DNA from: Roseovarius marisflavi | Lineage (GTDB): Bacteria > Pseudomonadota > Alphaproteobacteria > Rhodobacterales > Rhodobacteraceae | Direction: 5' to 3' | NCBI RefSeq assembly: GCF_900142625.1 | Contig: NZ_FRBN01000019.1 | Span: 1-64,000 of the forward strand | Length of the DNA: 64,000 bases | Position numbers and translations under genes: made by a program | The notes under the pieces: generated by a model | Databases searched by the model: none | Seen by the model: the letters and a program-made list of their open reading frames with translations, nothing else | Told to the model about the DNA's origin: nothing | Shown: positions 21,477 to 43,763 of the stretch, one piece after another | How the letters are laid out: every line of letters starts with the position of its first letter | How positions within the stretch are numbered: the first letter of the stretch is position 1

Positions 21477-21663
21477 CCATTCGTTGTGCCGCAAATCCCC
21501 GCACAGGGAAAGCCGCGACAGGTCTGTTTTTCGCAGCCTGATCTTTCATCTTTCCAAAAATACTCAACGCCACGCCCGGCCAAGAGCACTGGCGCCTGTG
21601 GCAAGGCGCGCCCACTGCGCCTATATTGCCCCGAGTGGGGGCTTTGCGGGACATCGGAACGAT

Positions 21664-25777: not shown

Positions 25778-25876
25778 CTGCTGTTTCGCTTTTGAAAGGT
25801 TTGCTAAATAGGGGCTTAGCACAGGACGCGCGGGCGCATAAGATTTGCGCAAGAAAGAATTGGAAACCCTCTGTTG

Positions 25877-26719: not shown

Positions 26720-26851
26720 TGCCCGGCGATTTCAATGGATTCGCCGCAGAACTGCCGTAATGCTGCGGCAGTTCGGTTTGGAGCCGCTATCAGGGTTAAC
26801 ACGGGGTTTAGAGTGCGCGTTGTAACGCAGGTTTTCTCAGGAGACGGGCTT

Positions 26852-28180
26852 TTGGCCCGGGCGATGCGCTCTTCGGCGCTGACCGTGGCAAGCTTTGGCA
26901 GCTCACAGGTGCTCCGGCTTGCCTCGAACCTTATCCTCGCGCGGCTGTTGTTTCCCGAGGCCTTTGGCATCATGGCGATTGTCAGCGTGATCATTCAGGG
27001 CCTGATGCAGTTTTCCGATGTCGGCGTCAGCCCGGCGATCATGCAGAGCAAACGTGGCGACGATCCGGATTTCCTGAACACCGCCTGGACCATTCAGATG
27101 ATACGCGGGGTCGGCCTCTGGCTGGCGGCCTGTGCTCTGGCCTGGCCGGTGGCGCAGATCTACGACGCGCCCCTCTTGATGCAGCTTTTGCCGGTCGCGG
27201 GGCTGTCTCTGCTGATCACCGGGTTCAACCCGACGCGGCTTGATAGCGCCAAGCGACACTTGCGCTTTGGCCGGGTGACGGCGATTGATTTCGCCGTGCA
27301 GATCGCGGGCATTCTGGCCGCCGTGGGGCTTGCCTTGTGGCTTCAATCGGTCTGGGCCCTTGTCATTTCGGGATTGATCAGCGCGCTTGTGGGGCTGGTA
27401 CTCTACTGGGTGTTTCTGCCCGGACCGGGCAACCGGGTGCGGTGGGAAAAGCCCGCCGCGCAAGAGCTTGTCAATTTCGGCAAATGGATTTTTCTGAGTA
27501 CGATTTGCGGTTTTCTGTTCAATCAGGCGGATAAGATTATCCTTGGCAAATACCTTAGTTTCTCGGTCTTTGGCGTCTATAACATCGGGTTTTTTCTGGC
27601 CTCTTTCCCGATGCTCCTGGGCAATATGCTCACCTGGCGGTTGCTGATCCCGATTTACCGCGAATTGCCACCCGGCGAGAGCCCCGAGAACTTTGCCAAG
27701 CTCAGACGCATGCGCTTTGCCGTCACCCTTGCGCTTTTGGCGCTTGTGGCGATCTTTGCGCTTTTGGGGGTCTGGCTTGCCGGGGTGATGTATGATGACC
27801 GCTATGAAATGGCCGGCGCGGTGGTGGTCATGATGGCGGTCATGCAAATCCCGCAGATCGTTGTGATGACCTATGATCAGGCCTCGCTTGCCGCCGGGGA
27901 TTCGCGCCGCTTTTTCATCCTGACACTGGTCAAGGCCGTGGTGATGATCGCCGCGCTAATCCTTGGCCTTGAATGGGGTGGATTGATGGGAGCGCTGATA
28001 AGTTACGGCGTGGCCATGCTCTTTGCCTATCCGGTGGTGGTCTGGCTTGCGCGCCGGATGCGCGCGTGGGACCCTTTGCATGACGCGTCGATGGCGCTTG
28101 TCGGGCTTGGGGTCGGCGCCTTGGCGGTCTGGGTCAATCTTGACGCGGTTGGCAATCTGGCGCGTGCTTCGGGGTGGTAG
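26852..28180 (+). CDS. Polysaccharide (lipid-linked repeat unit) flippase, Wzx-like
   Basis: The 442-residue polytopic membrane protein has about twelve hydrophobic segments and starts ARAMRSSALTVASFGSSQVLRLASN after the initiator. This is the usual beginning of MOP-superfamily polysaccharide exporters. It moves undecaprenyl-linked repeats across the inner membrane. The frame is open from 26735, but a TTG at 26852 lies 8 nt after AGGAG and gives the family start; GTG 26813 has no good ribosome-binding site. The next gene in the block is the PKS. Confidence 0.85.
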   Translation: MARAMRSSALTVASFGSSQVLRLASNLILARLLFPEAFGIMAIVSVIIQGLMQFSDVGVSPAIMQSKRGDDPDFLNTAWTIQMIRGVGLWLAACALAWPVAQIYDAPLLMQLLPVAGLSLLITGFNPTRLDSAKRHLRFGRVTAIDFAVQIAGILAAVGLALWLQSVWALVISGLISALVGLVLYWVFLPGPGNRVRWEKPAAQELVNFGKWIFLSTICGFLFNQADKIILGKYLSFSVFGVYNIGFFLASFPMLLGNMLTWRLLIPIYRELPPGESPENFAKLRRMRFAVTLALLALVAIFALLGVWLAGVMYDDRYEMAGAVVVMMAVMQIPQIVVMTYDQASLAAGDSRRFFILTLVKAVVMIAALILGLEWGGLMGALISYGVAMLFAYPVVVWLARRMRAWDPLHDASMALVGLGVGALAVWVNLDAVGNLARASGW

Positions 28181-28205
28181 GGCGCAGGGCCAAGGGACAA
28201 AAACT

Positions 28206-28274: not shown

Positions 28275-28277
28275 GCA

Positions 28278-31200
28278 GTGGATTTGATGAAAGATGACAT
28301 GATCCCCCAATCTGTCGACGACAATGACATTGCGATTGTCGGCATGGCTGCGCATCTGCCGGGTGCGCAGACGGTCGCGCAGTATTGGGAAAATCTGCGC
28401 AACGGCATAAGCTCGATCCGCAAACTGTCGCAAGACGAGCTTTTGGCGAGCGGCGAAAGTCAGCACATGATCCGCCAGAAAAACTATGTCCCTTTCGGCG
28501 CGCCGCTGGACGGGTTCGAGATGTTCGATGGCGAGTTTTTCGGCTTTGGCCCCAAGGAAAGCGCCATTCTCGACCCTCAACATCGCCATTTCCTTGAAAC
28601 CGCCTGGGAGGCGCTTGAAGATGCCGGGCACCCGCCGGAAAAATTTGACGGCAACATCGGGGTGTTTGCGGGCTGCGGCATGGGCAGCTATTTCTATTTC
28701 AACCTGTGTTCCAACCCTGATCTGGTCGACAATGTCGGCATGTTCCTGTTGCGCCACACCGGCAATGACAAGGATTTCCTGACCACGCGGCTTAGCCATA
28801 TTCTTGATCTCAAAGGGCCGAGCCTGTCGATCCAGACCGCCTGCTCCACCTCTCTGGTGGCGGTGCATTACGCGGCGCAATCGCTTTTGAATGGCGAATG
28901 CGACATGGCGCTTGCCGGTGGCGTGACCATCGAGCTGCCGCAAAAGCGCGGCTATCTTTACAAGGACGGCGAGATTCTTTCGCCTGACGGGCAATGCCAC
29001 GCCTTTGATCATCGCGCCCAAGGCACGGTCTTTGGCTCGGGCTCCAGCGTTGTCGTGCTGCGCCGTTTGGCCGATGCACTGGCCGATGGCGATCACATCT
29101 GGGGCGTGATCAAAGGCACGGCGGTCAATAACGACGGTGCCGCCAAGGCCGGTTACCTGGCCCCCTCGGTCGACGGTCAGGCGATTGCCGTGGCCGAGGC
29201 ACAGGCGATTGCCGGAATAAGCGCCGAAACCGTGGATTATGTGGAATGCCATGGCACCGGCACCTATCTTGGCGACCCGATCGAGGTTGCCGCCCTCACA
29301 CAGGCGTTTCGCGAGACCACCCAAGCGGTGGATTTTTGCCGCATCGGCAGTGTGAAGACCAACATCGGCCATCTCGATACCGCCGCTGGTGTGGCCAGCC
29401 TGATCAAGGCGACGCTGGCGCTTTATAACAAGGAAATGCCGCCCTCTCTTGGCTATGAGGCGCCCAATCCCGCGATTGGCTTTGACGGAAGCCCGTTTGC
29501 CGTCAATGAGCGGCTGAGGCCATGGCCGCAGCGCGATCATCCGCGCCGCGCCGGGGTCAATTCACTTGGCGTTGGCGGCACCAATGCCCATGCGGTTTTG
29601 CAGGAGCCGCCCGAGCGCCCCGCGTCAGAGCCCGGCGATTGGCCGTTTCAGCTTTTCACCCTTTCGGCGCGCAACAAGGCGGCTCTTGACGGTGGCGCGG
29701 CGCGGCTGGCCAGCCATCTGCGCGCGCATCCCGAGCAACCGCTGGCCGATATCGCCTGGACCCTGAAAGAGGGCCGACGCGCCTTTGATCACCGCCGCGT
29801 CGTGGTCGCCGACAGCCACGAGGCCGCCGCCGCGCTTTTGGAAAAGGGCGATCCGCGCCGGGTGTTTACCCACGAGGTGTTGGGCCATGACCCGCAGGTC
29901 GTGTTCATGTTCCCCGGCGGTGGTGCGCAATATGCGGGCATGGCGCGCGACCTTTATGAGACAGAGCCGGTCTTTGCCGAATGGATGGATCGCGGACTCG
30001 ACCTGCTTCAGCCCAGGCTTGATTACGATATTCGCGCGATCTGGTTGCCGGACGGCGCAGGGCTGGCCGAGGCGCAAGAGCGGCTCAAGCGCCCTTCGGT
30101 GCAATTGCCCCTGATCATGATCACCGAATTTGCGCTTGCCCAACTCTGGCAAAGTTGGGGCGTGACCCCCACCGCGCTTATCGGTCATTCGATGGGCGAA
30201 AACACCGCCGCCTGTCTGGCCGGGGTGATGAGCTTTGAGGATTGCATCGGCCTTGTGCATCTGCGCGGACAACTGTTTGACGAGGTTGCGCCGGGGGGCA
30301 TGCTGAGCGTGCCGTTGGCCGCCGACGCCCTGCGCCCCTGGCTTGGGGACGACCTTGATCTGGCGGCGGTGAATGCGCCCGAATTGTCGGTCGCCTCTGG
30401 TCCGCAGGCCGCCCTTGATGATCTGGCCGCGCGCCTTGCCTCCGAGGGGATCGAGGCACAGCGCATTCCAATCGACATCGCCGCCCATAGCCGGATGCTC
30501 GCGCCGATCCTTGACCGGTTCCGCGCCTATCTCGCCTCTATCACGCTCAATCCGCCACAAATCCCGCTGATCTCGAACCGCACCGGCGATTACATGACGC
30601 CGCAGCAGGCCACCGATCCGGATTACTGGGTTGGGCACCTACGCCATACGGTAGCGTATGCAAAGGGCCTTGGCCGCCTTGCCGAGGGCGAGGCACGGGT
30701 GTTTCTTGAGGTCGGCCCCGGCAAGGCGCTGTCCTCCCTGGCTCAGGCGCATGACGCGATCACCGCCAATCAGGTGATCGGCACCCTGCGCCATCCCGAT
30801 GACGTGGCGCCCGATGACGAATATTTCATGGCGATGCTTGGCCGGATGTGGGCGGTGGGGGTCACCATCGACTGGGATCAGATCTGGGGTGAGGTACGGC
30901 GTCAGCGCGTGCCGCTTCCGAGTTATGCCTTTCAGCACAAACCCTATTTCATCGCCCCCGGCGCGGCGCGGCACGAGGCAGCAACCGATTTTCCGCTGCG
31001 GCGCGATGATATTGCCGACTGGGGATACCGTCCGCATTGGCGGCCCAAACTTTCCGACATAGATCTTAGCGACGGCGCCGACCTTGACGCGATCCCGACC
31101 GAGAGTTGGCTTGTCTTTGAGGACGATGCAGGACTTGCCAAGGCGGTCGGTCAACGGCTTGAAGATGCCGGACATACGGTAACGTATGTTATCCCCGGCG

Positions 31201-34200
31201 ACGCCTTTGCCGCACTTGCGCCGGGGCGCTATGCGCTCTCGCTTGAACGCGGGCGCGAGGGCTATGATCATCTGATCCGCGCGTTGGTCGCCGAGGGCCG
31301 TGCGCCCACCCGGATCGCGCATTTCTGGCAAGTCACGGCGGATGAACGCCACCGCCCCGGATCAAGCTTTTTCCACCGGCTTCAGGAACAGGGGTTCTAT
31401 TGCCTGCTGTTTCTCGCTCAGGCCATGGCCGACGAGGGCCTGCCGACGCCGATCCATATCACCGCGATCACCTCTGGCGCGGCGCAGGTCAAGAATGAGC
31501 CGCTTGCTCACCCGGCCAAGGCCACTGCGATGGGCCCGCTGCGGGTGATCCCGCGCGAGATGCCCGGCGTGACCTGCGCCAGCCTTGATATCCCCATGCC
31601 CGACACCCGGCGCGGGATGCCCGACGCACTTGTCATGCAGGTGCTTGAGGATCTGCTGCAAGAGCCCGGCAACCGCGTGGCGGTCCTGCGCGGCGCGCGG
31701 CGCTATGAACAAGAGTACCGCGCCCAGCCGATCCCCGAGGGCAAGACACCGATTTGCGGCGGCGATACGGTGCTGATCACCGGCGGGTTCGGCGGCATCG
31801 GCCTGACCCTGGCCGAAGACCTGATCCGCAGGAATGGCGCCAGTATCGTGCTGATGTCGCGCGGTGCCCTGCCCGCGCGCGACGACTGGCCGCGCTATGT
31901 TGCGACCCGTGGCGCGGGCGATCCGCTGGCGCGCCGGATTGCCGCGATCGAGCGGTTAGAGGGGCTTGGCGGGCGCGTGATGGTGGTCACGGCAGACGTC
32001 TGTAACATCGAGGATATGCGCGCCGCACGGGCGCAGATCGAGGCCGGGTTTGGCCCCGTCAACGGCGTGATCCACGCCGCCGGCGTGATCGCCGATGCGC
32101 CACTTCTGAGCAAAGGGCCGGACAGCATCGAGGATGTGTTTACCCCGAAAATTCATGGCACACAGGTGCTTGAACAGGTATTCCCCGATGGAACGCTTGA
32201 CTGGCTCGTGCTGTTTTCCTCGACCTCGACGGTGACCGCCCCTGCGGGGCAGGTCGATTACGTGGCGGCGAACGAATACCTCAACGCCTATGCCAAATCG
32301 CGCAGCGCCGACAAGACCCGCGTGCTTGCGCTCAACTGGGGGATCTGGGCCAAGGTCGGCATGGCCGCCGAGGCGGTTGCGCGCCAAAAGGGCGATGTCA
32401 TCCCCGCCCCGCGTGTGCCCGTCACGGCGCCGCTGATCGACACGGCAAGCCATGACGCCGAGGGCAACCGGCTTTTCCACGCGAGCTATAGCGCGGCCCA
32501 AACCTGGGTGTTTGACGAGCATCGCACCAAGGCCGGTCAGGCGCTTTTGCCCGGCACCGGCTATCTGGAGCTTTTGGCCGAAGCCCTGCGCGCGCAAGGC
32601 GAAGAGGGCGCGTTTGAAATCCGCGACCTGTGGTTTTTGCGGCCCTTCGACATGCCGGATCAAGGCCCCCGCGACATGCGCCTGCGCTTGACGCGCAGCA
32701 ACGCGGGCTATGACGCAGAAGTGCAAAGCGCGTCGACCCTGGCCGGGCGTCACGGCTGGCAAAGCAACGCACAGGCGGGCGTAACCCTTGTGCCGCTCAC
32801 GGCTCCTGCGCCGCTTGATCTTGCGACCATTCGCAAGCGTATGGACAACTGGCAAGAGGCGGGCGATATTCCCCTGACCGCCCCGCAAGAGGCGCATCTT
32901 GAGTTCGGGCCTCGCTGGCGGGTTTTGCGCGCCATGGGATTTGGCCAAGGCGAGGCGCTTGCACATCTGCGCCTGCCAGAGATGGCGGTGGGCGATCTCG
33001 CGCAGGGCTATCTGTTGCATCCGGCCCTGATGGACATCGCGACTGGCTGGGCGATGAAGCTGATCGAGGGCTATGCGCCGACGCATCTCTGGGTGCCGAT
33101 GTCTTATGGCGCGGTCCGGGTCTATGGGCCGCTGACGGGCGAGGTCTTTAGCCATGTGCGCAATGCGGGCGACAACCGCGCCGGGGCCGAAACCGCAAGT
33201 TTCGACATCACGATCTGCGATGCAAGCGGCCGTGTTCTTGTCGATATCCAGAATTTCGCGATCCGTCGGCAAGAGGGCGGGCTTGCGCTCAGCGCGCCGA
33301 CCGCGCGGGATATTGAATTTGACCCCGGTCAAGACGGCGAGGCGCAAAACCTGTCGCCCGCAAAGGAACGGCTTCAGCACAACCTTGAACAGGGGATTTT
33401 GCCAAGCGAGGGCCCAGAGGCGTTTCGCCGCGCGCTTGCCAGCAGGTTGTCACAGGTGGTCGTATCCTCGCTTGACCTCGACACGCTGTGCACACAGGCC
33501 GAGCACGCCGCGCATGGCCACGATGAGGGCGGGCAAAAGTTCGACCGCCCCGACCTTGCAAGCGATTTCGTCGCGCCCGAGGGCGAGATCGAAACCCGAT
33601 TGGCAGAGTTCTGGAGTGGGCTTTTGGGTCTTCAAACCGTCGGGGTCGAGGATAGTTTCTTTGATCTCGGCGGGCATTCCCTGATTGCCGTGCGGCTGTT
33701 CGGGATGATCCGCAAGGCGTGGCAGGTCGATTTCCCGATTTCGGTGCTGTTCGAGGCGCCCACGATCCGCGCCTGCGCCGCGCTGATCGAGGCGCGTATC
33801 GGGCCGCAAGAGGCCAGCACAAACACCGCCCCCGCCAAGCCAAGCACGCCAGAGCGCCGATTCACCCATCTGGTGCCGATGCACCGGGGCGAAGGCGGGC
33901 CGAAACGGCCGTTTTTCCTTGTTGCGGGGATGTTCGGCAACGTGCTTAACCTACGTCACCTTGCGCATCTTCTGGGCGATGACCGGCCATTTTATGGGCT
34001 TCAGGCGCGCGGGCTTTATGGCGGCGAGGCGCCGCATGACGATCTTGTCGAGGCGGCGCGCGACTACATCAAGGAAATGCGCCAGATTCAGCCGCATGGC
34101 CCCTATCTTTTGGGTGGGTTTTCCGGTGGCGGTATCACCGCCTATGAGATGGCACAGCAACTGCGCGTGGCGGGTGAAGAGGCGGGCGCGGTGGTCATGC

Positions 34201-34715
34201 TTGACACGCCCCTGCCCCAGCGGCGTGCGCTGTCGCGCAAGGATCGCCTGCTTATCCAATGGCAGGAACTGCGCGCGCGCGGCCCGCTTTACCCGCTGCA
34301 CTGGGCGCGCAACCGGATCAGATGGGAGCAGGCCAAGCGCCGCCCGCAAGAGGCCGCGACAAACACCGAACATCAGTTTCACGACAGCGAGATCGAGGCC
34401 GCGTTTTACCGCGCGATTGCACGCTATGACCTGCGCCCATGGGATGGCCCGCTCTCCCTGTTCCGCCCGCCGCTTGTGGGCAAATGGCAGGTCTCGAACC
34501 GGCTCTGGGTGAATTCAGAGCGCGCTTATGTTCTGCCCGACAACGACTGGACGGCCCATGCGCCGCAGGTTCAGGTGACAGAGGTGCCGGGCGATCACGA
34601 TTCCATGGTGCTAGAGCCCAATGTGCGGGTTCTGGCCGCGCGCATCCGCCGCGCGATTGAGAGAGCCGAGGCGGATATCCCCGACGCGCCTGTTGCCCAG
34701 AGGGCCACGGAATGA
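28278..34715 (+). CDS. Type I polyketide synthase, KS-AT-KR-DH-ACP-TE
   Basis: This 2145-residue single-module PKS is complete. KS (about 17-445) has Cys189 in TACSTS, His325 in CHGTGT and His365 in NIGHLD. AT (about 541-850) has Ser638 in GHSMGE; the specificity motif reads AAHS, not clearly malonyl or methylmalonyl. A KR structural half (about 905-1150) precedes the KR (TGGFGGIG about 1165; Ser1315, Tyr1328). DH (about 1395-1670) has His1415 and Asp1586. ACP has Ser1801 in LGGHSL. TE has Ser1949 in GFSGGG and His2107 in GDHDS. KR before DH is not the usual order. No dedicated ribosome-binding site is seen at GTG 28278; ATG 28287 and 28299 are alternatives. It overlaps the following glycosyltransferase by 4 nt. 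Confidence 0.93.
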   Translation: MDLMKDDMIPQSVDDNDIAIVGMAAHLPGAQTVAQYWENLRNGISSIRKLSQDELLASGESQHMIRQKNYVPFGAPLDGFEMFDGEFFGFGPKESAILDPQHRHFLETAWEALEDAGHPPEKFDGNIGVFAGCGMGSYFYFNLCSNPDLVDNVGMFLLRHTGNDKDFLTTRLSHILDLKGPSLSIQTACSTSLVAVHYAAQSLLNGECDMALAGGVTIELPQKRGYLYKDGEILSPDGQCHAFDHRAQGTVFGSGSSVVVLRRLADALADGDHIWGVIKGTAVNNDGAAKAGYLAPSVDGQAIAVAEAQAIAGISAETVDYVECHGTGTYLGDPIEVAALTQAFRETTQAVDFCRIGSVKTNIGHLDTAAGVASLIKATLALYNKEMPPSLGYEAPNPAIGFDGSPFAVNERLRPWPQRDHPRRAGVNSLGVGGTNAHAVLQEPPERPASEPGDWPFQLFTLSARNKAALDGGAARLASHLRAHPEQPLADIAWTLKEGRRAFDHRRVVVADSHEAAAALLEKGDPRRVFTHEVLGHDPQVVFMFPGGGAQYAGMARDLYETEPVFAEWMDRGLDLLQPRLDYDIRAIWLPDGAGLAEAQERLKRPSVQLPLIMITEFALAQLWQSWGVTPTALIGHSMGENTAACLAGVMSFEDCIGLVHLRGQLFDEVAPGGMLSVPLAADALRPWLGDDLDLAAVNAPELSVASGPQAALDDLAARLASEGIEAQRIPIDIAAHSRMLAPILDRFRAYLASITLNPPQIPLISNRTGDYMTPQQATDPDYWVGHLRHTVAYAKGLGRLAEGEARVFLEVGPGKALSSLAQAHDAITANQVIGTLRHPDDVAPDDEYFMAMLGRMWAVGVTIDWDQIWGEVRRQRVPLPSYAFQHKPYFIAPGAARHEAATDFPLRRDDIADWGYRPHWRPKLSDIDLSDGADLDAIPTESWLVFEDDAGLAKAVGQRLEDAGHTVTYVIPGDAFAALAPGRYALSLERGREGYDHLIRALVAEGRAPTRIAHFWQVTADERHRPGSSFFHRLQEQGFYCLLFLAQAMADEGLPTPIHITAITSGAAQVKNEPLAHPAKATAMGPLRVIPREMPGVTCASLDIPMPDTRRGMPDALVMQVLEDLLQEPGNRVAVLRGARRYEQEYRAQPIPEGKTPICGGDTVLITGGFGGIGLTLAEDLIRRNGASIVLMSRGALPARDDWPRYVATRGAGDPLARRIAAIERLEGLGGRVMVVTADVCNIEDMRAARAQIEAGFGPVNGVIHAAGVIADAPLLSKGPDSIEDVFTPKIHGTQVLEQVFPDGTLDWLVLFSSTSTVTAPAGQVDYVAANEYLNAYAKSRSADKTRVLALNWGIWAKVGMAAEAVARQKGDVIPAPRVPVTAPLIDTASHDAEGNRLFHASYSAAQTWVFDEHRTKAGQALLPGTGYLELLAEALRAQGEEGAFEIRDLWFLRPFDMPDQGPRDMRLRLTRSNAGYDAEVQSASTLAGRHGWQSNAQAGVTLVPLTAPAPLDLATIRKRMDNWQEAGDIPLTAPQEAHLEFGPRWRVLRAMGFGQGEALAHLRLPEMAVGDLAQGYLLHPALMDIATGWAMKLIEGYAPTHLWVPMSYGAVRVYGPLTGEVFSHVRNAGDNRAGAETASFDITICDASGRVLVDIQNFAIRRQEGGLALSAPTARDIEFDPGQDGEAQNLSPAKERLQHNLEQGILPSEGPEAFRRALASRLSQVVVSSLDLDTLCTQAEHAAHGHDEGGQKFDRPDLASDFVAPEGEIETRLAEFWSGLLGLQTVGVEDSFFDLGGHSLIAVRLFGMIRKAWQVDFPISVLFEAPTIRACAALIEARIGPQEASTNTAPAKPSTPERRFTHLVPMHRGEGGPKRPFFLVAGMFGNVLNLRHLAHLLGDDRPFYGLQARGLYGGEAPHDDLVEAARDYIKEMRQIQPHGPYLLGGFSGGGITAYEMAQQLRVAGEEAGAVVMLDTPLPQRRALSRKDRLLIQWQELRARGPLYPLHWARNRIRWEQAKRRPQEAATNTEHQFHDSEIEAAFYRAIARYDLRPWDGPLSLFRPPLVGKWQVSNRLWVNSERAYVLPDNDWTAHAPQVQVTEVPGDHDSMVLEPNVRVLAARIRRAIERAEADIPDAPVAQRATE

Positions 34716-35716
34716 CAGACACCCCGCGCGTTCTCTGCATCATCCTGAATTGGCGCACACCAGAGATGAGCCTGAAATCCTGCGCTGCGGCGCAGGTCGC
34801 GATGCAGGGTATCGCGGGCGAGATTGTCATGGTCGACAACGAGTCCGGTGATGGGTCATTCGAGGCCATGCAAGAGGGCATCAAGGGCCAGAGCCGGGTG
34901 CGGGTGGTGCAATCGGGCCACAATGGCGGCTTTGGCGCGGGCAATAACGCGGGCATGCGTGCCGGACTGTCCGATGGCACACCACCCGATTACGTCTATA
35001 TCCTGAATTCCGATGCCTTTCCGGCGCCGGATGCGATAGCGCGGCTTCTGGCGCATCTTGAAAACACGCCCGAGGCGGGCCTTGCTGGCGGCTATATCCA
35101 TGGCTCTGACGGGGCGGCGCATGTGTCCTGTTTTCGCTTTCCCTCGATCGCTGGTGACTTTGAAGGGGCCGCACGCATGGGCCCGGTGAGCCGGGTGTTG
35201 AAGCGCCACATCGTGCCCCTTCCCGTGCCCGAGGCCAATCGCCCGATCGATTGGCTGGCGGGTGCAAGCCTTATGATCCGGCAAGAGGTACTGCACCAGA
35301 TCGGCGGGTTTGATGAACAGTTTTTCCTCTATTTCGAGGAAACCGACCTCTGCCTGCGCGCAGCGCGGGCCGGGTGGCAAACCCATTTCGTGCGCCAGAG
35401 CGAGGTCGAGCATATCGGCTCGGTCAGCACCGGCATGAAAACCTGGGCGCGGGTGCCCGATTACTGGTTCGCCTCGCGGCGGCATTATTTCGTGAAAAAC
35501 CACGGGCGCGCCTATGCCGTGGCGGCAACGCTGGCGCATTTGGGCGGCGGGCTGCTGGGACAGGTCTGGCGCATCGCCCGGCGCAAACGGGCCGCTGGTC
35601 CGCCGCATTTCCTGCGAAGCTTACTGGTAAGTGACCTGCGCGCGGCGCTGCGGGATATTGCAGGTCGCGGGCCTCAAAGTGCCCGCAAGGGCGCGCGTGC
35701 CGTGGCTGAAGAATGA
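34712..35716 (+). CDS. Glycosyltransferase, GT2 family (rhamnosyltransferase-like)
   Basis: The 334-residue GT-A protein starts MTDTPRVLCIILNWRTPEM. It has VDNESGDGS, GFGAGNNAG, ILNSDAF (the DxD position) and an FFLYFEETDLCLRA motif around residue 210, typical of WbbL-like rhamnosyltransferases. The ATG overlaps the PKS stop (ATGA), and the NRPS start follows 7 nt after its stop. It is thus translated with the assembly line and may glycosylate its product or a lipid-linked sugar carrying it. This role is inferred from position only. Confidence 0.88.
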   Translation: MTDTPRVLCIILNWRTPEMSLKSCAAAQVAMQGIAGEIVMVDNESGDGSFEAMQEGIKGQSRVRVVQSGHNGGFGAGNNAGMRAGLSDGTPPDYVYILNSDAFPAPDAIARLLAHLENTPEAGLAGGYIHGSDGAAHVSCFRFPSIAGDFEGAARMGPVSRVLKRHIVPLPVPEANRPIDWLAGASLMIRQEVLHQIGGFDEQFFLYFEETDLCLRAARAGWQTHFVRQSEVEHIGSVSTGMKTWARVPDYWFASRRHYFVKNHGRAYAVAATLAHLGGGLLGQVWRIARRKRAAGPPHFLRSLLVSDLRAALRDIAGRGPQSARKGARAVAEE

Positions 35717-35723
35717 GGATAAG

Positions 35724-38700
35724 ATGATGCTGAGCGCCCTTCTGATCGGGAATGAATCGCTGACCCTCAACTGTGGCGAAGGCTGGCTTGAACGCGGGCA
35801 TGCGATCACGGCCGTGGTCACGCGCAACGCCGATGTAAGGGCCTGGGCCGAGGCCAAGGGCCTGCCCCTGATGGCCCCCGGCGCGGGCTTGGCCGAGGCG
35901 TTAAGCGGCGTGTCGTTTGACTGGCTTTTGTCGATTGCCAACCTGTCGGTTCTCCCCGACAGCGTGCTGGCAGGGGCAACCAGGGGCGCGGTGAATTTTC
36001 ACGACGGGCCATTGCCGCGCTATGCGGGTCTGAACGCGCCGGTCTGGGCGTTGATGCAGGGCGAGGCGCGCCACGGCATCACCTGGCATCTGATCGAGGG
36101 CGGGGTGGATGAGGGCCGCATCATCGAGCAGCGCCTGTTTGATATCGCGCCCGATGACACCGCCTTTACCCTCAACGCGAAATGCTATGGCGCGGCGCTG
36201 GATAGCTTTGATGCCGTGATGGATCAGCTAGAGCGCGGCCTGCCCGGTGCCGTGGCGCAGGACCTTGACGCGCGCTCCTATTTCGCGCGCGCCGACCGGC
36301 CCGAAGCCGCCGCCTGGCTGGATTTCACCAAGCCCGCAAGCAATCTTGCCCGGCTGGTGCGCGCGCTGGATCATGGCGGGTATCTGAACCCGCTGTGCAT
36401 GCCCCGGATCATGCTGGGCGATCAGGTGGTTCTGGTAGGGCGGGCCGAAATTTTGGCCGGTGAAACCACCGCCCCCGAAACCGTTCTTGAGGTCACCAAA
36501 AACCACCTGAGCGTTGCGACACGCGACGGCGCGCTGCGACTAAGCGATCTGCGCGCCGGGGATGGGACAGCGATTGATCTGGTCAAACTGGCCACGCCGG
36601 GCATGATCTTGAGCCGGGACAATACGGCGGACGATCTGACCCGGATCATGGCCGATCTTGCGCCGAATGACGGCTATTGGCGCGGGGCCTTGCGGGCCAT
36701 GCGGCCTGTGATCCTGCCGCTTGCGGCGGGGGATGGCGCGGGCGTAGAGCGCCGCGCACTTGACCTTGCGGGCAACACGCTGCTTGGCGTTGCGGCCCTC
36801 TGGGCAAGCCGCCTTGCGGGTGAGGCGGGCGCGACGCTGGCCTATCGCGGCAAGGCGGTCAGCGCAGCCGAACAGCCCGGTCATACCTGTCCCTGGGTGC
36901 CGCTGACCCTGCCCGAGGGCAACACATTGGCGGACTTGCAGACAGCAATGGAGGCGGCTTTTGGACGCGCCGAGAGCAAAGGCGCCTTTGCGCTTGATAT
37001 CTTTGCGCGCGACCCCGGCCTTGACGCCGGGCACCGGCCCAACCTTGGCCTGCGGGTTGAGGGCAGCGGGCTTATCCCCGGCACGGTGCTCACGCTGGAC
37101 CTTGGACCCGAGCCAGGCCTTGTCTATGATCCCGCGCGCCTCTCGCCCGCGATGGCCGACCTACTTGCCAAACGGCTAGAGGATTTGGGTCGCGCCGCCC
37201 CCGACAGCACGATCGGCGACTTGCCCCCCCTGCCCGAGGGCGAGCATCGTCTTGTCACCCAAAGCTGGAACCGCACCGCGCGCACCTATGACCCCTTGCC
37301 GCTTCACAAGATGATCGAGGCCCGCGCCGCGCGCACCCCCGATACCACGGCCCTGGTGTTCGAGGATCAGGCCCTGACCCACGCCGAGCTTGAGGCACGT
37401 GCCAATCGCGCCGCGCATGTGCTGCGTCAAATGGGGGTTGGCCCCGGCGTTCTGGTCGGGCTTTGCCTGCCGCGCTCGGCCGATATGATCGTGGCGGCGC
37501 TTGCCATCTGGAAGGCCGGAGGGGCCTATGTGCCGATGGACCCGGCCTATCCCGCCGAGCGGCTTGCGCTTTACCTGGAAGACAGTGGCGCGCCCGTGGT
37601 CATAACACATGCCTCGCTGGCCCCGACCCTTCCCAAGACTGGCGCAGAGGTGCTCTGCCTTGATAACGATCCGCGCCTTGAGCGCGCGCCCGCCACTGCC
37701 CCCGAAGGCGGTGCCGGTGTGGATGACCTTGCTTATGTGATCTATACATCCGGCTCGACCGGGCGGCCCAAGGGGGTTATGGTCGAACACCGCAACGTGG
37801 CGAATTTCTTTGCCGGGATGGACGAGCGCATTGCGCATGATCCGCCGGGGGTTTGGCTTGCGGTGACAAGCCTCAATTTCGACATTTCGGTGCTGGAACT
37901 TTTCTATGCCCTCGCGCGCGGCTTCAAGCTTGTGCTGAGCGGCGATGAAACCCGCGCGCTTGTCTCGTCGGGGCATCTTGCCACCTCTGATCGCGGAATG
38001 GAATTCAGCCTTTATTACTGGGGCAATGACGATGGCACCGGGCGTGACAAATACAAATCCCTGCTGGAAGGCGCCCAATTTGCCGACACCCACGGCTTTT
38101 GCGCGGTTTGGACGCCCGAGCGGCACTTTCACGCCTTTGGCGGCCCCTATCCCAATCCTTCGGTAACCGGGGCGGCGGTGGCGGCGGTAACGCAAAACAT
38201 CGGCGTGCGCGCCGGAAGCTGTGTCGCGCCGCTGCATCATCCCGCCCGCATCGCCGAGGAATGGGCGGTGATCGACAACCTCACCAACGGGCGCGCGGGC
38301 CTTGCCATTGCCAGCGGCTGGCAGCCGGATGATTTCGTGCTGCGCCCCGAAAACACCCCGCCCGACAACAAGCCCGCCATGTTCGACGCGATCCGCGATC
38401 TGCGCAAGCTGTGGAAGGGCGAGGCAGTCGAATACCCGCGCGCCGATGGCAGCCTGCATAGCGTCGTGACCCAACCGCGCCCGGTGTCAAAAGATGTTCC
38501 GATCTGGGTGACAACGGCGGGCAATCCGGCCACCTGGAAAGAGGCCGGGGCGCATGGCGCCAATGTTCTGACCCATCTGCTTGGCCAATCCGTCAGCGAA
38601 GTGCATCAGAAAATCGGCCTCTATCATGCGGCGCTGCGCGAGGCAGGGCATGATCCGGCTGATTTCACCGTGACGCTGATGCTGCATACCTATGTGGCGC

Positions 38701-40310
38701 AATCGCGCGACGAGGCCGAGCGCGTGGCGCGCGAACCGATGAAGGATTACCTGCGCTCTGCGGCTGGTCTGATCAAGCAATATGCCTGGGCCTTTCCCGC
38801 CTTCAAGAAACCCGAAGGGGTCAGCAATCCGTTCGAGCTTGATCTTGGGTCGCTCTCCGAAGAGGAATTGGATGGCATCCTTGATTTCGCCTTTCTGCGG
38901 TATTTCGAGGACTCGGGCCTGTTCGGCACGGTCGAGGATTGCGTCGCGCGGGTTGAGGAACTCAAGCGGATCGGCGTGGACGAGGTTGCCTGTCTGATTG
39001 ATTACGGCATCCCGGTGCGTCAGGTTCTGGACGGGTTGCGCCCGCTGGCGCAGGTGCTTGAGCGAAGCAATCGCGTGGGCAGCATCCGTGAGGATGACTT
39101 TTCCATCGCAGCACAGATTTTACGCCATGGCGTGACGCATCTGCAGTGCACGCCGTCGATGGCGCGGATGATCGCGATGAATGACGAGGCGCGCCATGCG
39201 CTTGGGCGCATCAAGCATCTGATGCTCGGTGGAGAGCCTTTGCCCGGTGCGCTTATAGGTGAACTGGCGCAGATTTCCGGCGCTAGAATCGAGAATATGT
39301 ACGGGCCGACCGAAACCACGATCTGGTCCACCACCGCCCCTGCCGCCGCGGGCACAGGCGTGGCGCCGATCGGCACCCCGATTGCCAATACCCAGACCTA
39401 TGTTCTTGACGACACGATGCGTCCCGTGCCAGTTGGCGCGCCCGGCGAATTGTGGATTGGCGGCGACGGGGTGACGCGCGGCTATCTGCATCGCGATGAT
39501 CTGACCGCAGACCGGTTTCGCGCTGATCCCTTCCGCCCCGGCGGTCGGATTTACGGCACGGGCGATCTTGTGCGATGGCGCGCCGATGGGCAGATCGAGT
39601 TTATCGGGCGGGCCGACACGCAGGTCAAATTGCGCGGCTATCGAATCGAGCTTGGCGAGATTGAAAGCGCGCTGGAGGCCTGCGCCGGTGTCGATCAGGC
39701 GGCCGTTCTGGCGCGCGAAGACAGCCCCGGCGATACCCGCCTGGTGGCCTATCTGCGTGGCTCTGCCGAGATTGAGGCGCTCAAGCCACAGCTTGCGCGC
39801 GTTCTGCCCGCGCATATGGTGCCTGCGCATTTCGTGCGCCTTGATGCCTTTCCGCTGACGCCCAACCGCAAGGTGGACCGCAAGGCGCTTCCGGCGCCGA
39901 CGCTGGCACAGCCCGCGCCGCACACCATGGTCAGCTCTGCCGCATCGGGCAGCACCCTTGAGCGCGATATCGCAGCGATCTGGTCGCGCATTCTCGGCAT
40001 GGCGCAGATCGGCCCGCAGGACAGTTTCTTTGACCTTGGCGGGCACTCGCTTTTGGCGGTGCAGGCGCATCGCGAAATCCGACAGGAATTGGCGGCGAGC
40101 GCGTTGAGCATCACCGACATTTTCCGCTTTCCCAAGCTGGCGGCCCTGGCCGCGCGGGTGGCAGAGGCGCGCGGCGATGTCCCCGTTGGCGCTATTGTGA
40201 CGCCAGAACAGGCCAAGCCAACCGCGCCAGAGGTGCTTGGTGCGCGCGCCACCTCGCGGGCCGATGCGATGTCGCGGCGGCGCGCCATGCGTGCGGCGCG
40301 CCAAGGCTAG
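35724..40310 (+). CDS. NRPS: formyltransferase - degenerate condensation - adenylation with inserted luciferase-like monooxygenase - PCP
   Basis: The protein has 1528 residues. The N-terminal formyltransferase has the catalytic trio Asn91, His93 and Asp129 (NFHDGPLPRYAG, GGVDEG). About 310-520 resembles the C-terminal half of a condensation domain, without HHxxxDG. Adenylation follows: YTSGSTGRPKG near 675 and FDIS with Asp720. An FMN-dependent luciferase-like monooxygenase (about 755-1110, MupA/TIGR04020 type) is inserted, then adenylation resumes with YGPTET at 1193-1198, YGTGDL and NRKVDRKALP. PCP has Ser1442 in LGGHSL. No TE is present. The split pocket reads D720 I L Q1141 M1167 G M1192 I W1201 K, close to the published glycine code. 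It probably loads the PKS encoded upstream. GAGGAT precedes the ATG pair at 35724. Confidence 0.93.
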   Translation: MMLSALLIGNESLTLNCGEGWLERGHAITAVVTRNADVRAWAEAKGLPLMAPGAGLAEALSGVSFDWLLSIANLSVLPDSVLAGATRGAVNFHDGPLPRYAGLNAPVWALMQGEARHGITWHLIEGGVDEGRIIEQRLFDIAPDDTAFTLNAKCYGAALDSFDAVMDQLERGLPGAVAQDLDARSYFARADRPEAAAWLDFTKPASNLARLVRALDHGGYLNPLCMPRIMLGDQVVLVGRAEILAGETTAPETVLEVTKNHLSVATRDGALRLSDLRAGDGTAIDLVKLATPGMILSRDNTADDLTRIMADLAPNDGYWRGALRAMRPVILPLAAGDGAGVERRALDLAGNTLLGVAALWASRLAGEAGATLAYRGKAVSAAEQPGHTCPWVPLTLPEGNTLADLQTAMEAAFGRAESKGAFALDIFARDPGLDAGHRPNLGLRVEGSGLIPGTVLTLDLGPEPGLVYDPARLSPAMADLLAKRLEDLGRAAPDSTIGDLPPLPEGEHRLVTQSWNRTARTYDPLPLHKMIEARAARTPDTTALVFEDQALTHAELEARANRAAHVLRQMGVGPGVLVGLCLPRSADMIVAALAIWKAGGAYVPMDPAYPAERLALYLEDSGAPVVITHASLAPTLPKTGAEVLCLDNDPRLERAPATAPEGGAGVDDLAYVIYTSGSTGRPKGVMVEHRNVANFFAGMDERIAHDPPGVWLAVTSLNFDISVLELFYALARGFKLVLSGDETRALVSSGHLATSDRGMEFSLYYWGNDDGTGRDKYKSLLEGAQFADTHGFCAVWTPERHFHAFGGPYPNPSVTGAAVAAVTQNIGVRAGSCVAPLHHPARIAEEWAVIDNLTNGRAGLAIASGWQPDDFVLRPENTPPDNKPAMFDAIRDLRKLWKGEAVEYPRADGSLHSVVTQPRPVSKDVPIWVTTAGNPATWKEAGAHGANVLTHLLGQSVSEVHQKIGLYHAALREAGHDPADFTVTLMLHTYVAQSRDEAERVAREPMKDYLRSAAGLIKQYAWAFPAFKKPEGVSNPFELDLGSLSEEELDGILDFAFLRYFEDSGLFGTVEDCVARVEELKRIGVDEVACLIDYGIPVRQVLDGLRPLAQVLERSNRVGSIREDDFSIAAQILRHGVTHLQCTPSMARMIAMNDEARHALGRIKHLMLGGEPLPGALIGELAQISGARIENMYGPTETTIWSTTAPAAAGTGVAPIGTPIANTQTYVLDDTMRPVPVGAPGELWIGGDGVTRGYLHRDDLTADRFRADPFRPGGRIYGTGDLVRWRADGQIEFIGRADTQVKLRGYRIELGEIESALEACAGVDQAAVLAREDSPGDTRLVAYLRGSAEIEALKPQLARVLPAHMVPAHFVRLDAFPLTPNRKVDRKALPAPTLAQPAPHTMVSSAASGSTLERDIAAIWSRILGMAQIGPQDSFFDLGGHSLLAVQAHREIRQELAASALSITDIFRFPKLAALAARVAEARGDVPVGAIVTPEQAKPTAPEVLGARATSRADAMSRRRAMRAARQG

Positions 40311-40314
40311 GGCG

Positions 40315-40962
40315 GTGCTGGTCTCCGCGTTACGTGCGGTCCTGCCGCCGGGTGTCGCGCTTGGCAGCGCCGATCCCACCGCGCCCGAGACCGGGCTTTG
40401 GCCCGGAGAAAGCGCCGCGATGCGCCGCGCCATCCCTTCCCGGCGGCGCGAATTTGCCGCCGGCCGACGCGCGGCACGTGATGCCATGGCCACGTTTGAC
40501 GTGCCCGGCACCGCAATTTTTCCCGGCCCGGATCGTGCGCCGATCTGGCCCGACGGGATCACTGGCAGCATCAGCCATGGCGGCGGCACCTGCCTTGCCC
40601 TGGTGGCGCGGCGGGGTGCGATCACCGGCCTTGGGATTGATATTGAACCGGCAGAGGTATTGCCAGCGGACATGGTTGAGACGGTCTGCACCGGGCCGGA
40701 ACGCGCAGCGGTCAAGGATCATGACCTTATGGGCCGGGTGATCTTTTGCGCAAAAGAGGCTGCCTATAAGGCGCAATATCCGCTCAGCCGCGAGATGCTT
40801 GAGTTTCACGATCTGGAAACCGGCATCGACCTTGACAAGAGGCAGTTCGAGGCGCGGTTCACGCGCGCTTGCCCGCCCTTTCAGGCGGGCGCGCGGATGG
40901 TCGGCCGCATCGTCATCGCCCAGGGCCTTGTCGCGGCCGTTGTGGTGCTGTCCGCGCCGTGA
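40315..40962 (+). CDS. 4'-Phosphopantetheinyl transferase (EntD/Sfp type)
   Basis: This enzyme transfers phosphopantetheine from CoA to the active serines of carrier proteins. The 215-residue product has the two hallmarks: GLGIDIEP (magnesium ligands) around residue 105 and FCAKEAAYKA around residue 145. SRRREFAAGRRAA near residue 40 and SISHGGG also fit the EntD subgroup. It starts with GTG 4 nt after the NRPS stop, preceded by AGGG. It is therefore very probably dedicated to Ser1801 of the PKS and Ser1442 of the NRPS. Confidence 0.9.
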   Translation: MLVSALRAVLPPGVALGSADPTAPETGLWPGESAAMRRAIPSRRREFAAGRRAARDAMATFDVPGTAIFPGPDRAPIWPDGITGSISHGGGTCLALVARRGAITGLGIDIEPAEVLPADMVETVCTGPERAAVKDHDLMGRVIFCAKEAAYKAQYPLSREMLEFHDLETGIDLDKRQFEARFTRACPPFQAGARMVGRIVIAQGLVAAVVVLSAP

Positions 40963-41183
40963 AGCCGCCCAAGAACAGAGTGTTTCCATTCCCGGTCAAA
41001 TAAACTGTGGCGGGATTGTGGCCAAATCGCTAAATTAAGGCGAAGATTAGACAAAAATCTGTCAGGGCCGTTTGGGGGCATTCGGTCGGCAGGGTGTTTG
41101 AGGTGGGCATTGCCCCCGGCACTTGGCCGATGTTTACGCACCTCGGGCGGTTTTTCGTTTCAAACGACGCTGAAAGGTGGATG

Positions 41184-42476
41184 ATGGGTTCGATCCAATC
41201 CTTACCCGGTTTATTTCGCATGCTACGCCGCAGGATCTGGCTTATTGCATTTGTGACGCTGGCCGGGTGCGTCGGTGCGGTGTTTTTCGCGCTCAATCAA
41301 CCACGTGCCTTCGAGGCAACGGCGGTCATCCAGATTGAAACCCCGCAAGTGGGCCGCGATATCACCGGACGCGTCGTGCCGACGGATGCGATGCAACGGC
41401 TGCAATTGATCGAACAGCGGCTGATGGCCCGCGACAACCTGATCAAGGTGATCGACGAGCATGCGCTTTTTGCCAAAGCCCAAAACATGCCGCTGACGCA
41501 AAAGATCTATGACCTGCGGATTTCGACACGGATCGAACAGATTTCCGTCGGGCTTCAGGGTGTGGCCACAATCCCCTCGGGGCTAAGCGTCACGGTGCGC
41601 CTTGATGATCCGCAAAAGGCCGCCGATATTGCCAATGAATTTGTCGATACCGTACTCACTCAGAACCGCGAACGCCGCCTGGCGCTTGTGCGCGAAACCC
41701 TCGGATTTTATAGCGCGGAAGAGGCCAGCGTCAGCGAACAGATCGGCGATATTGAGGCCCAGATCGCGGAATTCAAGCGCGCCAATGCCGATGCTCTGCC
41801 GACCAGTGTTGGTGCGGCGCGCACGCAATTGAACATGCTGAATGAAACCATGCTGGAGATTGACCGCCAGATCATCGCGCTTGAAACCGACAGTTCGCGC
41901 CAACGCCAAGCGGTGTTCGCGCGCCAGGTCGAGCAGCTTACCGATCAGCGCAACCTTGTGGGGGAGCGCATCGCCCGGATCGAAGAGGCGATTGCCGCCG
42001 CCCCGCGGGTCGAGCGCGAATTGGGCGCTCTGGTGCGCAAGCAGACCCAGTTGCAGGAGCAGTTCAACACCATCACCCGCAACCGCGTTGAGGCCGAAAT
42101 GTCGAGTGTTCTGGAAAACCGCCAGCAGCAAGAACGCTTCGAAATTCTGGAAACCGCGATTCCGCCTGCTATTCCGGTCTCGACCAGCCGCAAAAAGCTT
42201 GCGCTCGCGGGCAGTGTGGCCAGCCTTCTTGTTGGGCTTGGCCTTGCGTTCCTGCTTGAGATCATGAATCCGGCGTTGCGCACCGCCGCGCAGCTTGAGC
42301 AAGAGCTAGACATCAGCCCGGTGGTGACAATTCCGGTCGTGCGTCTGCGTCACGAGCGGCGCAAGCAGGCGGCAAAAGCGATTGGCGCTTTTATCCTTGC
42401 CTTGATCAGCCTGCCCTTGATCTTGCGCTTTATCCACGAGCGGGTCATCCCGCTTCGGATCCTGGGCAATCAGTAA
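41184..42476 (+). CDS. Polysaccharide chain-length determinant / Wzz-type co-polymerase
   Basis: The 430-residue protein has one N-terminal transmembrane helix (about 17-38), a long coiled-coil periplasmic region rich in Glu/Gln/Arg, and a proline-containing IPPAIPVSTSRKK stretch before a second helix near 350. A further hydrophobic helix lies near 400-416. Wzz/GumC proteins set polymer length. It lacks a kinase domain; the kinase is encoded separately and convergently, overlapping by 7 nt. Start chosen at 41184 after AAAGG; 41181 is equally possible and 41094 is not supported. An upstream 221-bp gap after the PPTase gene suggests its own promoter. Confidence 0.85.
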   Translation: MGSIQSLPGLFRMLRRRIWLIAFVTLAGCVGAVFFALNQPRAFEATAVIQIETPQVGRDITGRVVPTDAMQRLQLIEQRLMARDNLIKVIDEHALFAKAQNMPLTQKIYDLRISTRIEQISVGLQGVATIPSGLSVTVRLDDPQKAADIANEFVDTVLTQNRERRLALVRETLGFYSAEEASVSEQIGDIEAQIAEFKRANADALPTSVGAARTQLNMLNETMLEIDRQIIALETDSSRQRQAVFARQVEQLTDQRNLVGERIARIEEAIAAAPRVERELGALVRKQTQLQEQFNTITRNRVEAEMSSVLENRQQQERFEILETAIPPAIPVSTSRKKLALAGSVASLLVGLGLAFLLEIMNPALRTAAQLEQELDISPVVTIPVVRLRHERRKQAAKAIGAFILALISLPLILRFIHERVIPLRILGNQ

Positions 42477-43582
42477 CCGTATTTCGCGATGTCACCATCT
42501 TCGGCGCGGTTCATCACCACCCCAAGCAGCGGGGTCTCTGCGCCAAAGCGGCGTTTGACATCGCGCACCTCCTGGGCCGTGCTGCGCCCGCCGCCGATCA
42601 CCAAAAGCACCCCGTCGAATTGCGGGCGGAACCCGAGAGCATCGTCATAGTAAAGCGCGGGCGGCATGTCGAACAGCACGACATCGGGGCGCAGGCGGGC
42701 ATAAAGATTGTCAAGCACCTCGCCGGTCCGGGGCGCCTGCAAAAGTTCGGCGGCATAGGATTCGACGCGATCATTCAGGCCAAAGGCAAGGTTCTCGCCA
42801 ATATTCAGCGCATTTTCGGCGGGGCGGACAAACTGTTGTTCAAGCGAGGTATCGCCCTTCAGAAAGGACGCAATCGGCCCCGGCGCAGACAGGCCGAGGG
42901 TACGCGCAAGCGACGGGCGGCGCAGATCAAGATCCATAAGCACGGTATGCACGCTTGGCTGACGCGAGAGGCTAATCGCGAGATTGGCGGCGACGAAAGA
43001 CTTGCCGCAATCCGGCGTCGGCGAGGTGATCGCAACGCGATGCCACCCCTTCGCGCGCAGGGCGGCCAAAAGCTTGGTGCGCAGCACGTCAAAGGCCACG
43101 TGAGCGGGGTCTTCGCGCGTGGCAGTGATCAGGCGGTTGCGCGTCAGATGTCTGGCGTCAAGCGGCACGGACCGCAGGTTTGGCCAGAGCAGAGGTAACG
43201 GCGCAGGCACCTCATCGACCGCGTCTTCTGGTGCCTGTTCGACAGGGCCATTGACCACGGCAACCTCTGGCACAGGGACGACGATAACCTCTGACTCGTC
43301 TTCGGCCGCATCTGCAACGTTCGGTGCGTCTTCGACGTCAGGCTCAGGCTCAGGCTCAGGCAGTTGCCCGTCGGCCTCTGCCACAAGCGGTTTTTCATCG
43401 AGCGGCGGCGCGATCATCTCGGGGCTCAGCGCAAAGGGCGCCTCGTCGGCCTCTTGCGTGGCTTCATCGGCCTCGGGCGACAGGATATCCTCTTGATCCG
43501 GACTATGGGAGTGAGGGTTTTCCAGGGCATCACGGCGCGCGGCGCGGCGGCGCATGTGGGCCTCATAGCGCGACAGTTTCAT
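42470..43582 (-). CDS. Bacterial tyrosine kinase / CpsD-CapB-like ATPase
   Basis: The 370-residue cytoplasmic P-loop protein has Walker A SPTPDCGKS at 187-195, Walker A' VLMDLDLRRP and Walker B VVLFDMPP. Such kinases phosphorylate themselves and control polymerisation together with a Wzz partner, here the convergent 41184 gene. The C-terminus has only two tyrosines (AKYGY), so the usual Tyr cluster is minimal. Residues about 20-130 are a Pro/Glu/Asp-rich, probably disordered linker. ATG 43582 follows GGGGA; a GTG at 43630 with GGAG is a real alternative. A 181-bp gap separates it from the fused dehydrogenase gene. Confidence 0.85.
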   Translation of the reverse strand: MKLSRYEAHMRRRAARRDALENPHSHSPDQEDILSPEADEATQEADEAPFALSPEMIAPPLDEKPLVAEADGQLPEPEPEPDVEDAPNVADAAEDESEVIVVPVPEVAVVNGPVEQAPEDAVDEVPAPLPLLWPNLRSVPLDARHLTRNRLITATREDPAHVAFDVLRTKLLAALRAKGWHRVAITSPTPDCGKSFVAANLAISLSRQPSVHTVLMDLDLRRPSLARTLGLSAPGPIASFLKGDTSLEQQFVRPAENALNIGENLAFGLNDRVESYAAELLQAPRTGEVLDNLYARLRPDVVLFDMPPALYYDDALGFRPQFDGVLLVIGGGRSTAQEVRDVKRRFGAETPLLGVVMNRAEDGDIAKYGY

Positions 43583-43763
43583 GGCGCCATCCCCCGACAG
43601 CGCCCAAAGCGAAGTGGCGCGCCAAGGCACGTGATCTCCGCCAACCTGAAAAGGCCCTGCTCAGCCATTTGAAATTCCTTTGCCTGCCCGATCAGGTAGA
43701 CAGGATAAATCCGGCGACAATGCGACCGAAAAAGAGAGATTGTATGCCCCTTGCAGGGGAGCC

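Follow-up and report, generated by a model that had tools for sequence, protein, structure and literature searches.

Organization of the locus

The stretch analysed here, referred to as the window, is 64,000 nucleotides of Roseovarius marisflavi (Rhodobacteraceae; assembly GCF_900142625.1, contig NZ_FRBN01000019.1, positions 1 to 64,000 of the forward strand), taken from a genome of 4.08 Mb in 82 contigs. It holds four adjacent genes that resemble a small natural-product line: a type I polyketide synthase (PKS), a GT2 family glycosyltransferase named GT2x, a nonribosomal peptide synthetase (NRPS) and an Sfp-type phosphopantetheinyl transferase (PPTase). Pfam and NCBIfam domains confirm the layout proposed in the initial annotation, in which all four lie on the forward strand between a Wzx-type flippase gene upstream and a gene for a Wzz chain-length determinant downstream (Table 1). 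The line can also be said to have its own PPTase, as was claimed; the only other PF01648 match in the genome sits in a frame of 143 aa, the size of AcpS.

The Wzx and PKS genes are separated by 97 nt and the PKS and GT2x genes overlap by 4 nt. The NRPS open reading frame (ORF) as listed, from position 35631, overlaps GT2x; most homologue alignments start at residues 26–36 of this frame, and the NRPS is therefore likely to start at the ATG at 35724, 7 nt past the GT2x stop. The listed PPTase frame overlaps the NRPS in turn, and its start is probably just after 40310. Promoter-like and terminator-like sites in 25600–43700 show no excess above the shuffled level.

The locus further contains the parts of a Wzx/Wzy-type exopolysaccharide (EPS) pathway, namely Wzx, Wzz with a BY-kinase, an initiating sugar transferase and glycosyltransferases, the kinase and the initiating transferase scoring below their model cut-offs. 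The candidate polymerase has no Pfam or NCBIfam match, and 7–11 hydrophobic segments are found in most of the 33 members of its group. A GMC oxidoreductase gene is also present among the polysaccharide genes.

Table 1. Features of the window, with the PKS/NRPS genes first and the surrounding polysaccharide genes after them.
Feature	Position	Strand	Basis or remark
Type I PKS, single module, KS-AT-KR-DH-ACP-TE	28278..34715	+	Pfam/NCBIfam domains
GT2 glycosyltransferase, GT2x	34712..35716	+	Domain matches; typically encoded between PKS and NRPS
NRPS starter module, formyltransferase-A(Gly, embedded MOX)-PCP	35724..40310 (listed ORF from 35631)	+	Domains; start inferred from homologues
Embedded FMN-dependent luciferase-like monooxygenase (MOX)	38004..39056	+	TIGR04020, 475.6 bits (cut-off 244.45)
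Conserved basic NRPS C-terminal tail, preceded by a variable linker, R-[AS]-[DE]-[AT]-M-[AS]-[RK]-R-R-[AE]-M-R	40254..40307	+	Pattern search
Sfp-type PPTase, 4PPT_N and ACPS	40237..40962 (listed ORF)	+	Pfam/NCBIfam
Wzx-type flippase	26735..28180	+	Domain matches; one of the genome's 2 PF13440 matches
Wzz chain-length determinant	41094..42476	+	Domain matches; neighbour cluster 7, in 49/81 loci including the window
SGNH-like N-terminal motifs (by eye) with RTX calcium-binding C-terminus	21484..24558	+	Recurring neighbour
GT2 glycosyltransferase upstream of Wzx	25874..26719	+	Domain match; matches 41/41 members of neighbour cluster 8
BY-kinase-type polysaccharide tyrosine autokinase	42470..43630	-	TIGR03018, below cut-off
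Gfo/Idh/MocA-epimerase fusion, sugar metabolism	43764..45869	-	Domain match
GT2 glycosyltransferase, GT2c	45883..46920	-	Domain match; common to EPS loci with and without PKS/NRPS; used as control
GT4 glycosyltransferase	46845..48092	-	Domain match
NAD-dependent epimerase and Gfo/Idh/MocA oxidoreductase (two genes)	48089..50187	-	Domain matches
WecG/TagA/CpsF-type glycosyltransferase	50291..51169	+	TIGR00696, 98.3 bits (cut-off 69)
Acyltransferase 3 (AT3)-SGNH protein	53505..55523	-	Domain match
Wzy-like polytopic membrane protein, candidate polymerase	56874..58268	-	Hydrophobic segments; assignment inferred
Initiating undecaprenyl-phosphate sugar transferase	59710..60429	-	WbaP/EPS_sugtrans models, below cut-off

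Domains of the assembly line

The PKS is a single module whose Pfam and NCBIfam domains run in the order ketosynthase (KS), acyltransferase (AT), ketoreductase (KR), dehydratase (DH), acyl carrier protein (ACP, matched as PP-binding) and thioesterase (TE), with no enoylreductase (ER) domain. The NRPS begins with a formyltransferase (FT) domain, followed by an adenylation (A) domain in which AMP-binding is split by the monooxygenase (MOX; residues 792–1142) and continues as AMP-binding_C, and then by a peptidyl carrier protein (PCP) of the PP-binding type. With neither a condensation (C) domain nor a TE in the NRPS, the starter that it makes has to be handed to the PKS ketosynthase. The gene order is NRPS then PKS in Methylobacterium (L154) and in two further genomes (G421, G1077), and the solved proteins nearest to the PKS include hybrid NRPS/PKS lines, while the nearest solved relative of the MOX is PuwE (6ket, E 3.6e-97).

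The presence of all active-site residues, read earlier from the window alone, extends to nearly all relatives in the alignments, the catalytic positions being those characteristic of the families. The FT Asn/His/Asp triad and the PCP serine are kept in 116 of 117 NRPS rows (110 groups at 98% identity), and the KS, AT, KR, DH (His, Pro and Asp), ACP and TE positions in 82–85 of 86 PKS rows, with the DH glycine in 79/86. The single NRPS without the FT triad (L123, genome G097) has also lost its PCP serine. This genome is a case of its own: within an EPS locus (L123/L124) the NRPS frame is open yet the FT triad, the MOX and the PCP serine are gone, and the PKS is split in two ORFs, so that the NRPS reads as a degenerate or repurposed copy. 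The NRPS of another genome, G085, has no MOX, is otherwise intact-looking and lies within an EPS locus. Loss of the MOX was considered as a common variant and dropped, since of these two cases only G085 remains once the degenerate copy is set aside.

The basic C-terminal tail of the NRPS (RADAMSRRRAMR-type) is matched by pattern in 102/117 rows (97/110 non-redundant) compared to 6/5850 shuffled tails. Of the 15 misses, 12 are near variants and 3 end early (L008, L010, L085). A stricter pattern matches 53 NRPSs and zero other selected proteins of the loci, and relatives from Hyphomicrobiales have other basic tails. The tail is a possible docking or membrane motif.

Predicted glycine specificity and related modules

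The A-domain signature of the window NRPS, read from the alignment, is DILQMGMIWK. The form DILQ[MFLY]GMIWK is seen in 116 of the 117 rows, the remaining row being DILQLGLIWK, and the same type of code occurs in eight distant or further relatives and in a separate genome, G144. In the passages of PMC12283262 drawn on here, four of four published glycine-activating domains with a MOX carry DILQLGMIWK, and the MOX is described as hydroxylating the glycine and then cleaving its backbone to an amide. An oxygenase proposed to help turn a glycine primer into an oxime is reported for necroxime in an excerpt of PMC7318616. The two hallmarks of this module type, a glycine signature and a monooxygenase inserted between the halves of the A domain, are both present here, the code being identical to or one residue off DILQLGMIWK. 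Unlike the oxime-forming module proposed for necroxime and the amide-forming modules, the NRPS studied here is fused behind a formyltransferase, lacks a C domain and has as its partner, within an EPS locus, a PKS of a single module. The starter of LgrA (linear gramicidin) has the same FT-A-PCP layout, and the best PDB matches of the NRPS are to LgrA, with the FT Asn/His/Asp residues kept; it differs in that the present NRPS has a glycine code and an embedded MOX and must feed a PKS instead of a C domain. Together, these features are good grounds for predicting a glycine-derived, formylated starter.

Conservation of the set beside polysaccharide genes

Relatives of the NRPS were taken as the best 80 of 360 matches from a scan of genome contigs, which belong to Rhodobacteraceae, Hydrogenophaga and one Curvibacter metagenome-assembled genome (MAG), the closest being from Roseovarius; with the window these give 81 loci, with flanks of about 10 kb. 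PKS, GT2x and NRPS share a strand in 78/81 loci, joined there by the PPTase in 63/78, and are contiguous in that order in 75/81, so the gene order that the initial annotation proposed looking for elsewhere is indeed shared. EPS genes lie beside the set in 76/80 relatives, with at least three EPS gene clusters in 70/80, when neighbour clusters are typed by Pfam and NCBIfam (some small clusters being left untyped). This is the opposite of a set found mostly away from polysaccharide genes, which had been named as the outcome that would speak against the association, and the majority of the divergent genomes that were read likewise have polysaccharide genes with the set. Of the four relatives without EPS neighbours, three are contigs of 10–14 kb and the fourth is the Curvibacter MAG (L069), with none in 25 kb. 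GT2x is displaced from between PKS and NRPS in three genomes (G285, G191, G646), still within the same EPS locus, and in one (G118) the set sits at a contig end.

The set is also seen beyond the immediate relatives. A comparison across 367 genomes of the class gives seven with a match at 1e-150, one of them the genome of the window itself, and 2/7 are outside the family. Hydrogenophaga, a betaproteobacterial genus, carries the set at about 60% NRPS identity (L013-L018, L027), with an XrtA-associated ATPase and EPS genes, which suggests transfer between classes. Methylobacterium bullatum (44% identity) has an NRPS and PKS of the same architecture near epimerase and GT4-like genes and a Wzz-kinase-like fusion, whose Wzz match of 25.0 bits is just under the Pfam cut-off of 25.5. 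Plasmid records from Ruegeria, Paracoccus and Aminobacter contain the set with annotated EPS neighbours; on pUSP1 of Aminobacter, genes near those for PKS, NRPS and PPTase encode a flippase, glycosyltransferases, an export protein and a member of the O-antigen ligase family. On the 787 kb plasmid of Ruegeria conchae (L155), the set lies near dTDP-rhamnose genes and a gene for the VPLPA-CTERM exosortase XrtD.

Co-occurrence with the Wzx flippase

The distribution of the set was profiled in 394 genomes of the family, nearly one per genus. NRPS matches at 1e-50 occur in 182/394, and the 143 genomes counted as carriers are the 145 strong matches minus G144 and G022. A Wzx homologue of at least 48% identity is found in 130/394 genomes: 129 have both, 14 the NRPS only, 1 the Wzx only (G080) and 250 neither. 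At 50% identity or above the numbers are 119 with both, 24 with NRPS only and 0 with Wzx only, and at 38% they are 134, 9 and 10, with 241 having neither.

Genomes with a Wzx match contain 136 NRPS copies, of which 108 are on the same contig as the Wzx gene (87 no more than 15 kb from it and 104 no more than 50 kb) and 28 are on other contigs, which may result from fragmented assemblies. In the four genomes with a distance of 78 kb to 1.87 Mb between NRPS and Wzx (G034, G055, G243, G303), the PKS and NRPS are still among EPS genes, and in two without a Wzx match (G285, G191) they are likewise among WecG, Wzz, BY-kinase or GT2c genes.

Proposed role in exopolysaccharide synthesis

The set appears strongly linked to EPS, as judged by these sequence comparisons. 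The reading favoured here, to which a probability of about 0.6 is assigned, is that the four genes form a dedicated sub-pathway of the Wzx/Wzy-type EPS pathway that makes an acyl substituent for the repeat before flipping. The earlier proposal that the line serves the surface polymer thus stands with regard to co-location (76/80) and a phylogenetic profile matching that of the flippase; attachment to the polymer is its conjectural part. In the following scheme the product, the site of oxidation, how many times the starter is extended, the acceptor and a covalent bond to EPS are all predictions. The PPTase would arm both carriers and the NRPS load glycine, which the embedded MOX would oxidise, N-hydroxylation being the first choice and alpha-hydroxylation the second, and which the formyltransferase would N-formylate. 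The starter would be passed to the PKS ketosynthase and extended once, probably with malonate, and ketoreduction and dehydration would give a 4-formamido- or 4-(N-hydroxyformamido)-butenoyl-type acyl group, or its 3-hydroxy precursor. The TE may then transfer or release the acyl group to become a substituent on a sugar of the lipid-linked repeat, with GT2x adding or extending the acyl-bearing sugar, before Wzx flips the decorated repeat and Wzy and Wzz polymerise it. In butirosin side-chain assembly, a small carrier-bound amino-acyl unit is similarly moved to a sugar amine, by different enzymes and on a free aminoglycoside rather than a polymer.

GT2x was compared with its counterparts in EPS loci lacking the set, using 10 genomes with a distant Wzx (38–49%) read around that gene, to which G742 was added for GT2x identities. 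The 10 loci have a relative of GT2x in 10/10, of GT2c in 9/10, of the Wzy-like protein in 9/10 and of WecG in 6/10. Identity of GT2x to the window has a median of 59% (5th percentile 52.5) in 100 loci with the set and of 34% (maximum 40.6) in 11 loci without it, a gap that counts for less because the former were picked for closeness to the window NRPS, which inflates their values. WecG shows no gap (54 vs 53%, with vs without the set, 46 vs 6 loci). In a 62-row tree, PKS-linked GT2x forms one clade of 49 rows (support 100/99), with G646 and G185 outside. This pattern suggests that GT2x may have become specialised for the product of the PKS/NRPS or for the sugar that carries it.

Several further points weigh against the proposed role. 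The two classes of loci also differ in identities of GT2c (59 vs 46%, overlapping) and, moderately, in those of Wzx (59 vs 44%) and of the Wzy-like protein (47 vs 38%), and the GT2c control tree needs 3 label changes, the same as the GT2x tree, so the contrast is one of depth and not of count. Two genomes with the NRPS have no GT2x match at 1e-40 (G217, G158) and two have a distant match only (G185, G118). No EPS genes lie beside the set in G217, G185 (contig C4), G1077, G144 and L069, and G421 has weak ones. The Fisher p value for co-occurrence with Wzx, 1.6e-86 at 48%, is not to be taken literally, as the genomes are related and the value overstates their independence. Distance correlations with the NRPS (PKS 0.89, Wzz 0.88, Wzx 0.79, PPTase 0.78, GT2x 0.76, GT2c 0.61) prove little, since neighbouring genes inherited together would be expected to show them and other genes have higher values than GT2x. 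With regard to chemistry, backbone cleavage to an amide, as in the published glycine modules, would give another product, and the G085 NRPS without a MOX implies that oxidation is not essential everywhere. Finally, the product of a TE is often a free acid, and an acyl-activating transferase was not among the enzymes identified.

With N-hydroxylation, the acyl group would be a hydroxamate, and metal binding by the polymer would become possible. That each repeat receives an N-formyl-N-hydroxy acyl group before flipping, giving a polymeric, multidentate metal-binding coat, is a tentative and rather unlikely extension of the favoured reading. No description of an NRPS/PKS-decorated exopolysaccharide, or of such a set tied to EPS, was found in searches of open-licence PMC papers. 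A hybrid PKS/NRPS present in 143/394 genomes of the family, over one third of the genera sampled, would ordinarily be classed as an antibiotic or siderophore cluster. Should it serve to modify a polymer, many orphan clusters of Rhodobacteraceae would gain a testable job, the building blocks of polysaccharide chemistry would be joined by one of a new kind, and both flippase and glycosyltransferase would become candidates for recognising a polyketide-peptide substituent. A natural comparison is available among related EPS loci, some of which have the set and some of which lack it.

Alternative explanations

The rival that survives best, unlikely as it is, holds that the line makes a small molecule that is secreted free, for example a signal, an antibiotic or a hydroxamate metallophore. 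Its genes would then simply be housed in the EPS locus, with GT2x perhaps glycosylating the molecule or Wzx exporting it. A free acid could be the form that the TE releases, and G1077 has an NRPS-PKS without EPS genes. In G144 (L113-L114), an FT-A(Gly)-MOX-PCP module of the same kind (44% identity) has two large NRPS/PKS proteins as neighbours and no EPS genes, indicating that the starter module serves other natural-product lines too. In the part of PMC4062626 drawn on here, a PKS (Inhi_1972) and an NRPS (Inhi_1974) of Phaeobacter inhibens, two locus tags apart, are listed under secondary metabolism, and these may be the same set as in the window. A free product is harder to reconcile with the neighbourhood: siderophore-cluster features (TonB-type receptor, exporter, iron regulation) are absent from the recurring neighbour clusters that were typed within about 10 kb of the set, whereas EPS genes are among them. 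A LysR regulator lies beside the set in 5 loci. The Wzx homologue of at least 50% identity is never found without the set in the 394 genomes, and the set itself is in 143 of them, from nearly as many genera; secondary-metabolite clusters are usually less widespread than this.

It is less probable still that the product anchors or primes the polymer in the manner of a lipid, the role ascribed to RkpA and WcbR in capsule loci. These proteins, believed to be stand-alone PKSs without an NRPS, in contrast to the PKS of the window with its adjoining NRPS, offer the closest parallel that was found for a PKS encoded among polysaccharide genes. Excerpts of PMC3908369 place their type I PKS genes within rhizobial and Burkholderia capsule loci and, as far as those excerpts go, mention no NRPS starter, GT2 partner or PPTase. 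The present set differs in its formyl-Gly-MOX starter, in its KS-AT-KR-DH-ACP-TE order and in lying in a Wzx/Wzy-type EPS locus. Against a lipid speak the polar formylated glycine starter loaded by the NRPS, the single module without ER, and related EPS loci that manage without the set.

An incorporation of the product in the polymer backbone, where GT2x would glycosylate its hydroxyl to give a non-sugar unit in the repeat, is more improbable again. The usual position of GT2x between PKS and NRPS and its divergence from relatives in loci without the set would fit, but an active DH would remove the hydroxyl, and glycosyltransferases such as GT2c and WecG also occur in loci lacking the set. Chance co-location of unrelated genes, to which only a few unlinked genomes (G217, G185) point, is very improbable and is strongly argued against by the shared strand (78/81), contiguity (75/81), EPS neighbours (76/80) and co-occurrence with Wzx.

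SGNH-type neighbours

The AT3-SGNH protein encoded at 53505 had been put forward as a possible attachment enzyme. Its relatives are found in the flanks of at least 9/80 relatives of the set and in 5/10 EPS loci from genomes without it; because of the latter it was rejected as a specific candidate, as the initial annotation's suggestion is not supported on this point. Another SGNH-fold protein, neighbour cluster 16 (e.g. L082 17510-18457; model pLDDT 90.9), is absent from the window and has its best PDB match in 4i8i, a DUF4886 protein (TM 0.53), followed by GDSL hydrolases. It shows weak similarity to the RTX protein (E 0.006). Together the two recur in 50/80 loci, some of the RTX matches being C-terminal only, with the locus ending there; the acyl groups of the polymer may be acted on outside the cell by the RTX/SGNH-like proteins and cluster 16.

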